Below the pieces are notes generated by a model. That model ran no database searches. It saw only the letters and a program-made list of their open reading frames with translations, and was not told the origin of the DNA. The position numbers and the translations under genes were made by a program. Of a DNA stretch of 64,000 nucleotides, positions 8,460 through 12,700 are shown in pieces. How positions within the stretch are numbered: position 1 is the stretch's first letter; each line of letters opens with the position of its first letter. Source of the DNA: Alphaproteobacteria bacterium (GTDB taxonomy: Bacteria > Pseudomonadota > Alphaproteobacteria > Ferrovibrionales > Ferrovibrionaceae); contig JAFKFH010000011.1 of assembly GCA_017307375.1 (NCBI GenBank), positions 1 to 64,000 on the forward strand. Direction: 5' to 3'.

Positions 8460-8491
8460 GTTTCGACCCACGCTCCCGCGCGGGGAGCGAC
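8460..8491 (-). CRISPR. Orphan type I-C CRISPR repeat, identical to the array consensus
   Basis: All 32 bases match the repeat of the array that begins 1.2 kb away (starts GTTTCGACCC, ends GGGGAGCGAC). It lies beyond the distal end of the array as seen from the leader. Phage-like coding sequence starts immediately after it. Confidence 0.9.
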
Positions 8492-9274
8492 GCTGCAGGC
8501 GACCGACCTGCTGCCGGGCCTGCGGAAGCAATGGCGCCGGTCGGGCAAGCGCCACAGCCGCGTCACCCACGATCTGGCCGATGGCCAGATCCGCAAGCCG
8601 CCGAGGCGTTCGACGTCGGCGGCATCGAGATCATGCACCCGCGCGACCCGAAGGCCCCGCCGGGCGAAACGATCAACTGCGGCTGCGAGAGCCTGCCGAT
8701 GATGGTGAGCTGGGAGGTGACGCACCCCGGGGCCAAGCCGTTCACCCCGGACGAGATGGCCAACCCGGGCGCGCGCCAGGCGGCCGAGGTGCGGGAGCGC
8801 GATACGGCCGACTGGGCGGCGGCGGTGGCCAGCGGCGAGCAGCGCGCCACCGGCGAGGCGCGGACCATCGGCAGCCTGGCGCCGGCCATCGTCGCGTTTC
8901 TGGCGGGCAAGCACGTCGACCCGGTCACGCGCGACATCGGCATCGGCGACCGCCAGATCGTCCACATGTTCCGTGAGATGAAGCGGCGCCGGGGCCAGGC
9001 CCTGCCGGAGAGCCTGGCGCCGAGACTGGCCGAGCTGCTCGCCCGGCCCAAGGCGGTGCTTTACGACACGCAGGCAGCCTCGCCGCAGCTGCTCTATGTG
9101 TTCGAAGTCCCCGGCGAGGCTCGCTTGGGTAAGCTGGCGGTCAAGCTGGGGGATCGGGAGAAGCGCCTGGACATCCAGCGCCACAATTGGGTTGCGACCG
9201 CAGGCTTGGTCAGCCGCGAGCAACTTACCGTCAGACCGGGGGCGCAATACGAATTGGTGATGGGCTCTGTATGA
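8492..9274 (+). pseudogene. Phage head-morphogenesis (Mu gpF-like) protein, 3' fragment with a possible C-terminal nuclease domain, frameshifted
   Basis: Right after the orphan repeat the third frame reads LRKQWRRSGKRHSRVTHDL then ADGQIRKPP. The reading then continues one frame over as EAFDVGGIEIMHPRDP and GETINCGCES, up to the stop at 9272-9274. The pattern H-x-ADGQ ... F-VGG ... P-x-DP ... INCxC is the characteristic end of phage Mu F-like minor head proteins. The junction near 8601-8604 looks like loss of one G (CCGCCGAG for CCGCCGGAG). The following 190 residues end with a compact domain (KAVLYDTQAASPQLLYVFEV ... LGKLAVKLGDREKRL). It resembles the RelE/barnase/EndoU-type nuclease domains that phages fuse to head proteins; that assignment is inference. 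The 5' part of the gene is missing, cut exactly at the CRISPR repeat. Confidence 0.7.
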
Positions 9275-9535
9275 CCGCCGCGTCGGGTCGCAACACCCGC
9301 TTCCTGCCTACCGGGGGGTCCGGCTGCAGCCCACGGCCAGGCCGAAGCCTGGGCGCAGTACGGCAACACCGATTTCACCGCTGCCGCGGCGATCACGGGC
9401 CTGAATTTATCACCGGGCGGACCGGGAGGCAACCCGACCCCGAAAATCAGCCCCGTACAGGCCCCTCCGACGCTGGCCGCGGTCAACCCCGGAAAATTCG
9501 GACCCGCCGGTTTGGGACGATTTGTGACGGCCTAG
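9271..9535 (+). pseudogene. Small phage-like ORF with a frameshift in a G run
   Basis: It begins ATG at 9271, overlapping the previous stop (ATGA), as in a phage operon. It reads MTAASGRNTRFLPTG, and after dropping one G from the six-G run at 9313-9318 it continues HGQAEAWAQYGNTDFTAAAA and ends VNPGKFGPAGLGRFVTA at a TAG (9533-9535). The restored product would be 87 aa. I do not recognise it. The coupling to the upstream head-protein fragment supports phage origin. The extra G could be a real mutation or a sequencing error. Confidence 0.45.
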
Positions 9536-9705
9536 CGGCGAAGATAAACCGCCTGCCCGCGTGACGGTCCGGGTTGGGGCGGCGGCTAGGCCGAAACGCC
9601 GGTCGACAGGCCGGCATCGGCGGGTTAGCCTCCGCCGGACCAGCCAGCGGGCCAGGCGCGCGACCGTCGCGCCGAAAATCTGCCGCCACCTGGCCCCCGT
9701 CACAT
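9536..9705. other. Non-coding stretch between phage remnant and distal end of the CRISPR array
   Basis: 170 bp with no convincing gene. A minus-strand reading frame here is rich in Arg and has no recognisable motif. It ends exactly where the first, slightly degenerate array repeat begins. Confidence 0.5.
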
Positions 9706-12700
9706 GCTTCGACCCACGCTCCCGCGCGGGGAGCGACCTTGGCGGCGGTCATTTTGGTTGCTCCCTTGCTGGTGTTTCGACCCACGCTCCCGCGCGGGGA
9801 GCGACGGGGTCCGTCGGACTCGTCGGATTTGGTATGGCCGGTTTCGACCCACGCTCCCGCGCGGGGAGCGACGCAGCGTGTCGTCGACGCGGTATTCCCC
9901 GACGGCGTTTCGACCCACGCTCCCGCGCGGGGAGCGACCATCCTCGATCAACGAGCAGGTTTCGGCTTGGACCGTTTCGACCCACGCTCCCGCGCGGGGA
10001 GCGACAAGCCGGTCCCGGGCATCGCGAATATAGCTCCTGGTTTCGACCCACGCTCCCGCGCGGGGAGCGACGGTACCGAGCGAGAACGTCGCATCCGCGG
10101 TCGGCGTTTCGACCCACGCTCCCGCGCGGGGAGCGACGTCAGGCCGTACTTGTCGGTATTGCGCCCGTAGATGTTTCGACCCACGCTCCCGCGCGGGGAG
10201 CGACGCTGTTTTAGGTGCCCAATAATCGTTTTAGGATCGTTTCGACCCACGCTCCCGCGCGGGGAGCGACGCGTGTGCCCGGCGGTATACGGCGCGCTAA
10301 CGGTGTTTCGACCCACGCTCCCGCGCGGGGAGCGACGTCTACGACAAGCACCGCGACACCATCGAAAAGGTTTCGACCCACGCTCCCGCGCGGGGAGCGA
10401 CGGCGCGGGCTTCCGTTTCCGGGGTGCCGCGAAAGCGTTTCGACCCACGCTCCCGCGCGGGGAGCGACCCCGATGGTCCGGGGATGCCCCAGACGACCTC
10501 ATTGTTTCGACCCACGCTCCCGCGCGGGGAGCGACCCAGTTCGAGCAGCCGGGCGACATGGGCGCGGTTGTTTCGACCCACGCTCCCGCGCGGGGAGCGA
10601 CAGCGCGTCCAGCGCCAGCACCGATGGCGCAGATTTCGTTTCGACCCACGCTCCCGCGCGGGGAGCGACGATCCCGAGCGTCGCGGCGATGCCGCGCCGA
10701 TAGTTTCGACCCACGCTCCCGCGCGGGGAGCGACGGCCGGGGCGCCTGTGTGGTCGGCGTCCCAACGGAGTTTCGACCCACGCTCCCGCGCGGGGAGCGA
10801 CAGTTTGCCGACACGACCGCGGCGCTGCCCCCGACCGTTTCGACCCACGCTCCCGCGCGGGGAGCGACGGCCTGCCCAGTCACCGCAGCAGCAGCACGTC
10901 AGGGTTTCGACCCACGCTCCCGCGCGGGGAGCGACCTTCGATCAGGTCGGAGGCACGGGCCGCGAAAATGTTTCGACCCACGCTCCCGCGCGGGGAGCGA
11001 CGTCCGGTACGGAAACGGTAACGAAACCCCGTGAACGTTTCGACCCACGCTCCCGCGCGGGGAGCGACGACCACCACGGCCGAGGCGATCCGCCGCAACC
11101 GGGTTTCGACCCACGCTCCCGCGCGGGGAGCGACACGGTAAACGTGGCGATCGTCGACGAGGTCGAGTTGTTTCGACCCACGCTCCCGCGCGGGGAGCGA
11201 CGTCCGCGACCAACGTCCCGACGCCGGCCATGATCGTTTCGACCCACGCTCCCGCGCGGGGAGCGACGACGCCGGCGGCGGCGCGCTTGACGGCATCGTC
11301 GTTTCGACCCACGCTCCCGCGCGGGGAGCGACCTTTTCTGGATGAACGAGATAGGCGACAGCGCCGGTTTCGACCCACGCTCCCGCGCGGGGAGCGACAC
11401 TGGGAGGAAAGCGGTGATTGACGAGCCGTTCGCGTTTCGACCCACGCTCCCGCGCGGGGAGCGACTACCTGACCGGATCCGCTGACGACCAGCGGCCGGG
11501 TTTCGACCCACGCTCCCGCGCGGGGAGCGACAGCGTGACGCTGCGGTCCAGGTCCTCGCGGACCGGGTTTCGACCCACGCTCCCGCGCGGGGAGCGACTA
11601 CAGATCCGTCGAGCTTCCCGACGTCGCTACGGGGTTTCGACCCACGCTCCCGCGCGGGGAGCGACGTTCCCATAGCAACGATGTTAAGATGCTTGCCCAT
11701 GTTTCGACCCACGCTCCCGCGCGGGGAGCGACTTCTTGCCTTTCACCCATTCCTTGACAAGATAGGGTTTCGACCCACGCTCCCGCGCGGGGAGCGACGC
11801 CCTGGTCGCTCAGCGGCGGGCTGAAGGGCGAGGTTTCGACCCACGCTCCCGCGCGGGGAGCGACTATCCGCGCCGTGTTCCTCGTATGTCGACAGCATGT
11901 TTCGACCCACGCTCCCGCGCGGGGAGCGACCGTTTGCGTGGCGCAAGGCGTTCAGGGACAGAGCGTTTCGACCCACGCTCCCGCGCGGGGAGCGACTCGC
12001 CACGCGCGACCGTCCCCCGGTGCCGACTAAGTTTCGACCCACGCTCCCGCGCGGGGAGCGACACGACGGGCACGCTGGCGACGCGCGCCGGCACAGGTTT
12101 CGACCCACGCTCCCGCGCGGGGAGCGACTCATTTCGCTGTTGGCGAGCGTCGCCGATACACGGTTTCGACCCACGCTCCCGCGCGGGGAGCGACGCGCTC
12201 ACCGGCCGGCACGCGACGCGGCCCGCGCCGTTTCGACCCACGCTCCCGCGCGGGGAGCGACCAGCTGCGCGTCATAGTTGGCGCTGGCCAGCTGGTTTCG
12301 ACCCACGCTCCCGCGCGGGGAGCGACCTTCGCGCCCGCTGAAAAAGCGCTGAATCCATTCCTGTTTCGACCCACGCTCCCGCGCGGGGAGCGACCCGGGT
12401 GCGCGTGCAGGACGCCGACGGCTCGATCGTTTCGACCCACGCTCCCGCGCGGGGAGCGACCCCTGTCCTGTGTGTCGCTTGCCGACGAGGATTTTGTTTC
12501 GACCCACGCTCCCGCGCGGGGAGCGACGTTATCACCCCGACCACGCACGCGATGATGCTCGTTTCGACCCACGCTCCCGCGCGGGGAGCGACCATCGCCG
12601 GCTGCCACTGATCGACCGTCAGCCCGTTTCGACCCACGCTCCCGCGCGGGGAGCGACGAAGGCCGGCGACCGCAAGCGGGCGAAGACTGCGTTTCGACCC

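Follow-up and report, generated by a model that had tools for sequence, protein, structure and literature searches.

The window, by which we mean the whole stretch of 64,000 nucleotides analysed here, covers the opening 64 kb of contig C20, which is 291,794 bases long and belongs to a genome of 7.5 Mb. The window carries on the minus strand a complete CRISPR-Cas locus, which we classify as type I-C from its genes cas3-cas5c-cas8c-cas7-cas4-cas1-cas2 and its 32-nt repeat. Between an outlying copy of this repeat and the array itself lies a piece of phage DNA, related to a prophage on another contig (C36) of the same genome. The features are arranged as follows.

8460..8491, minus strand (canonical orientation): outlying CRISPR repeat, identical to the consensus, from the genome repeat search
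8492..8524, minus strand: spacer-sized start of the phage piece, 33 nt, a putative former spacer or protospacer
8525..8527, minus strand: GAA on the plus strand, TTC on the minus strand, a type I-C PAM correctly placed for the 33-nt candidate spacer
8492..9274, plus strand: 3' part of a Mu-like MuF head-morphogenesis gene, lacking the 5' end and, compared with C36, one nucleotide near 8600
9275..9705, no strand assigned: phage sequence without a clear gene; its counterpart in the C36 prophage comes after the head gene
9706..9737, minus strand: last repeat of the array, with one mismatch (second plus-strand base C, not T)
9738..13385, minus strand: type I-C array apart from its last repeat, holding 55 spacers and as many repeats
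13601..13891, minus strand: cas2
13895..15025, minus strand: cas1 (type I-C)
14911..15591, minus strand: cas4
15588..16541, minus strand: cas7 (Csd2)
16538..18310, minus strand: cas8c (Csd1)
18307..18972, minus strand: cas5c
18991..21246, minus strand: cas3

The array proper (9706–13385) consists of 56 repeats and 55 spacers of 33–36 nt, nine of the 55 being 33 nt long. A genome-wide search allowing up to three mismatches returned 57 copies of the repeat, all on the plus strand at the C20 locus, and none of a reversed control pattern; the array repeat had no match in the genome contig collection. The preliminary description of this DNA had called the repeat at 8460–8491 identical to the array consensus, which this search confirmed, and had the array start at 9706, which holds for the array proper, although the repeat at that position departs from the consensus at one base. 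We took as controls the loci of ten genomes that were found, together with our own, by a Cas1 search (E 1e-90) of 387 genomes of the class; seven of the ten control stretches contain an array, in two cases at a contig edge, and three do not. We take the leader to be on the cas2 side and the trailer to be at the 9706 end, a polarity that is backed by one of the seven control arrays (L052, whose degenerate repeats lie at the end farther from cas1) and not indicated by the other six, which have exact repeats at both ends. From the outer repeat to the trailer end of the array there is a gap of 1,214 nt, which is filled by phage DNA.

Further out, at about 8390 and 69 nt away from the outer repeat, lies a candidate degenerate repeat that we rejected: it matches at 15 of 32 positions, and 16 were reached by chance elsewhere within these 260 nt. 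The nine nucleotides just outside the outer repeat (8451–8459) equal the last nine of spacer 17 (10828–10836), so that 41 nt in all are shared with the end of that spacer and its repeat. This identity is unexplained and was spotted post hoc; suffix matches of at least 9 nt occur at 0.087% of 58,650 window positions, or about 0.0009 per look. The outer repeat itself may perhaps have been copied from the array interior, or the identity may mark an earlier rearrangement of the array. A search with the flanking genes found loci in seven of 18 family genomes, our own included.

The DNA between the two repeats (8492–9705) is continuous phage sequence, 85% identical from end to end to positions 173839–175050 of C36, which was the one other full-length match in the genome among the 40 of 442 first-look candidates that were scored. 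The C36 counterpart is an unbroken internal part of a prophage, made up of a gene for a 461-aa MuF protein and then about 490 nt without a clear gene. The array copy starts inside the MuF domain (PF04233, residues 167–268 of the C36 protein), which is cut exactly at the repeat border, and stops 54 nt short of the next phage gene. The preliminary description had read a Mu gpF-like fragment without a 5' end directly after the repeat, and in this it was right. The small phage-like open reading frame that it had placed next is not supported: three open frames of the stretch after the head gene have no match in PHROGs or Pfam, as in an earlier partial scan, and reading frames there are displaced by indels, at 9396 and 9487, in comparison with C36.

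Differences from C36 in the coding part fall at 35, 31 and 72 of 260 first, second and third codon positions, respectively; given this skew, much of the divergence arose when each copy was still a working phage gene, and we infer that the capture took place after the two phages had diverged. The stretch after the head gene (9275–9705) agrees with C36 at 390 of 430 aligned positions and is thus better conserved than the end of the head gene that encodes the C-terminus (8972–9271, identical at 203 of 297). It is a possible conserved phage regulatory or RNA element, and an Rfam scan of 8280–9800 gave no match. A 325-codon open frame on the plus strand (8297–9274) crosses the outer repeat and enters the head-gene frame after the 1-nt deletion near 8600; its passage through the repeat is probably incidental.

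The C36 prophage region is about 40 kb long with 37 predicted ORFs, of which ten were scanned with PHROGs and nine with Pfam. Matches include a Mu-type transposase (phrog_310, Mu-transpos_C and HTH_Tnp_Mu_1), terminase, portal, capsid and tape measure proteins, and because of the transposase and the structural genes we regard the C36 phage as transposable and Mu-like. No closer parent was found. Among 61 genomes searched at the DNA level (our own and 60 relatives, none of the same genus) only our own matched, and the 461-aa head protein had no confirmed relative among 20 pattern matches in genome contigs and three in viral contigs. The two exact end patterns of the piece had no match in viral contigs. 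Named phages gave one DNA match, of 173 nt, to Microcystis phage Mae-JY22 and, at the protein level, distant matches in 60 records, 30 of these 60 being listed. Because the searches of relatives and phages yielded nothing closer, C36, at 85% identity, is our sole proxy for the donor.

A second strong Phage_Mu_F domain lies on contig C13 of the genome (G000:C13:173042-173434, equal to L034:8042-8434), and at E 1e-3 its region does not resemble the insert in DNA sequence. None of the 55 spacers has a full-length match in the stretches of C36 and C13 or in the window flanks, where the longest alignment at E up to 5 covers 23 nt with three mismatches. A search for DDE_2 found nothing in our genome and nothing in 14 control genomes either, and is therefore uninformative.

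The borders of the piece were read against C36. At the left junction the repeat ends in ...GGGGAGCGAC and is followed by GCTGCAGG, where C36 has ...CAGGAGCGGCA and then GCTGCAGG; at the right junction the phage sequence ...CACATG is followed by CTTCGACCC, where C36 has CACATG ATCAGCG CTTCGGCCC. Thus the left border is exact at the repeat, as the preliminary description had said of the phage cut as a whole, and the right border is defined to within 1–2 nt, as the phage homology takes in base 9706 (CACATG). The odd C of the 9706 repeat agrees with the phage version GCTTCG. Relative to C36 the left junction misses one base and the right junction seven, and neither is a clean microhomology join. 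Neither border carries a Mu end or a 5-nt target duplication. A continuous internal phage segment fills the space between the two repeats, with neither phage ends nor a target duplication.

These borders bear on a further scenario, transposition of a complete Mu-like prophage into the array's old end followed by loss of both flanks through two deletions ending in repeats. Mu-type phages insert widely, the C36 relative has a Mu-type transposase, and its repeat-like flanks, described below, could have guided such deletions. However, this course of events requires two independent deletions, each of which came to a halt at a repeat edge, neither border retains a phage end or the 5-nt duplication, and the rest of the 40-kb C36 region has no further piece matching the window at E 1e-5; we consider it unlikely. 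An intact Mu-type transposition product was rejected, since the internal segment is present alone, without phage ends or the 5-nt duplication. We also rejected a prophage integrating site-specifically into the CRISPR repeat, as the window contains no full phage and C36, with nine to ten of its 37 ORFs scanned, has a Mu-type transposase and no copy of the repeat.

The preliminary description had raised the prospect of an abnormally large acquired segment. In such an event Cas1-Cas2, possibly with Cas4, would have integrated a 1.2-kb prespacer lacking a PAM as a single spacer. Borders at the repeat edges (left exact, right within 1–2 nt) and a phage as donor are what such an event predicts, and the piece resembles an ordinary type I-C spacer in being phage-derived DNA between two repeats. 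Yet at 1,214 nt it is about 36 times the normal length and lies outside the 33–36 nt of the other 55 spacers, and none of the 236 intervals in the seven control arrays reaches 70 nt. In C36, moreover, GAT stands at the canonical 5' side of the piece, where TTC is expected, and GCA at the other side, a reading that rests on an 85% relative from which the last 86 nt of the insert differ at one base. Furthermore, the similarity of the phage flanks to the repeat is not expected of acquisition and, should arrays lengthen from the leader side, each of the other 55 spacers would have to be younger than the piece. Given that C36 shows no TTC at either border and has repeat-like flanks, we disfavour this proposal and think it improbable. 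If it were true, the locus would be a fossil showing that the length ruler of the integrase can fail 36-fold in nature.

We also weighed whether the arrangement is real. Mis-joins in assemblies are common at repeats, but the site is 8.5 kb into a contig of 292 kb whose other repeats are resolved with normal spacing. The piece is 15% diverged from C36 and was therefore not borrowed from it, and the scored candidates contained no third full-length copy; we consider a chimera very improbable. Another origin for the outer repeat would be a solitary repeat unit, a Racr-type RNA anti-CRISPR, brought in by the phage, since a lone repeat beside phage DNA resembles the units that PMC10651486 presents from viral genomes. 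Against it, the far flank of the outer repeat matches neither the C36 stretch nor a second genomic copy, the C36 phage has no repeat and all 57 copies are on contig C20; we find this explanation barely credible.

We consider that the fragment of a Mu-like phage was probably captured between two type I-C repeats by DNA recombination rather than by Cas1-Cas2 acquisition; in favour of recombination, the piece is colinear with C36 from the edge of one repeat to within 1–2 nt of the other. The source would have been an infecting or resident Mu-like phage. In the route that we slightly prefer, the 33 nt at the outer repeat would formerly have been a normal spacer that targeted this phage. Homologous recombination of this spacer with its phage target, PAM side included, would have set the left border at the edge of the repeat, and illegitimate recombination at a short tract resembling the repeat would have connected the opposite end to a neighbouring repeat. 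Alternatively, within the same explanation, repeat-like tracts may have been used at both ends. The preferred route is akin to homology-facilitated illegitimate recombination, in which one end is anchored by homology and the other joined at a few bases, with inserts of kilobase size, although some 33 nt would make a short anchor for that process.

The spacer-anchored route is suggested by the exact left border, the 33-nt length and the TTC placement, which fit a type I-C spacer. Phage sequence starts at the repeat border and runs on past spacer length through GAA/TTC, as recombination between a spacer and its protospacer would leave it. A GAA lies 33–36 nt downstream by chance at 53 of 1169 positions of the insert and at 2194 of 39955 positions of the C36 region (4.5–5.5%). 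In Pseudomonas aeruginosa TTC is the type I-C PAM and escapers changed positions +2 and +3, according to PMC7913775. The PAM of the system described here may be another; C36 differs from the putative spacer at the PAM-proximal positions +1 and +2. A single crossover is expected to leave a reciprocal spacer copy beside the 9706 repeat, but 9673–9705 matches 8492–8524 at eight of 33 positions, and nowhere else in the window does 8492–8524 match at more than 24 of 33. The reciprocal copy could have been lost by deletion.

The route through repeat-like tracts draws on the C36 flanks, both of which resemble the adjoining repeat ends (GGAGCGGC versus GGAGCGAC and GCTTCGGCCC versus GTTTCGACCC). When random positions were drawn from the 40-kb C36 region, the two flanks together, compared without gaps, had a chance that ran from 0 of 6000 draws up to 0.0055 with word lengths of 6, 8 or 10 nt (nine cells) and was 0.0265–0.028 at 12 nt; single sides gave 0.0055 to 0.35, the maximum being for the left side at 12 nt. 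Gapped local alignment of the flanks with the repeat gave chances of 0.09 (left) and 0.17 (right). The TTC placement and the flank similarity are thus both weak signals that point to different routes, and neither is decisive. The weak points of recombination as a whole are the roughly 5% chance of the TTC placement, the weak gapped flank scores, the lack of a clean microhomology, the absence of the reciprocal spacer copy and the use of an 85% proxy for the true parent. The preliminary description had also offered phage insertion or recombination inside an old array, or a deletion that fused prophage with repeat; the phage origin and the repeat-bounded ends are confirmed, and recombination or insertion followed by deletion fits better than acquisition.

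Recombination of a spacer with its phage target has been reported, as noted in the review PMC8616872, which cites Varble 2019, a study in Staphylococcus to which PMC9071438 and PMC10434264 also refer. As described there, phage DNA meets the array at the matching spacer and the spacer itself is the homology, as in our preferred route; at our locus, however, just a 1.2-kb phage fragment remains, the array is a chromosomal one of type I-C, and there is no spacer at the second junction. PMC10359306 reports that array sequences can receive an integrating prophage. The case of Varble et al. 2021 in S. pyogenes, as cited by other papers, is similar in that phage DNA lies inside an array with array sequence on both sides, whereas our piece is an end-less fragment whose relative is a transposable, Mu-like phage. 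We found no description of a Mu-like fragment in a type I-C array in the titles and abstract openings covered, a limited set from which subscription papers were mostly absent. The rearrangement is real, is unmatched in our small control set and is unusual, but relatives of its kind have been reported.

The locus shows that an array may go on past a gap of a kilobase. If a spacer was the anchor, immune memory itself let phage DNA on the kilobase scale into the chromosome, an entry that has been reported for staphylococci and that would here involve a type I-C array and a Mu-like phage. The junction to seek in other arrays is a repeat followed by a match of spacer length, a PAM and continuing phage sequence.
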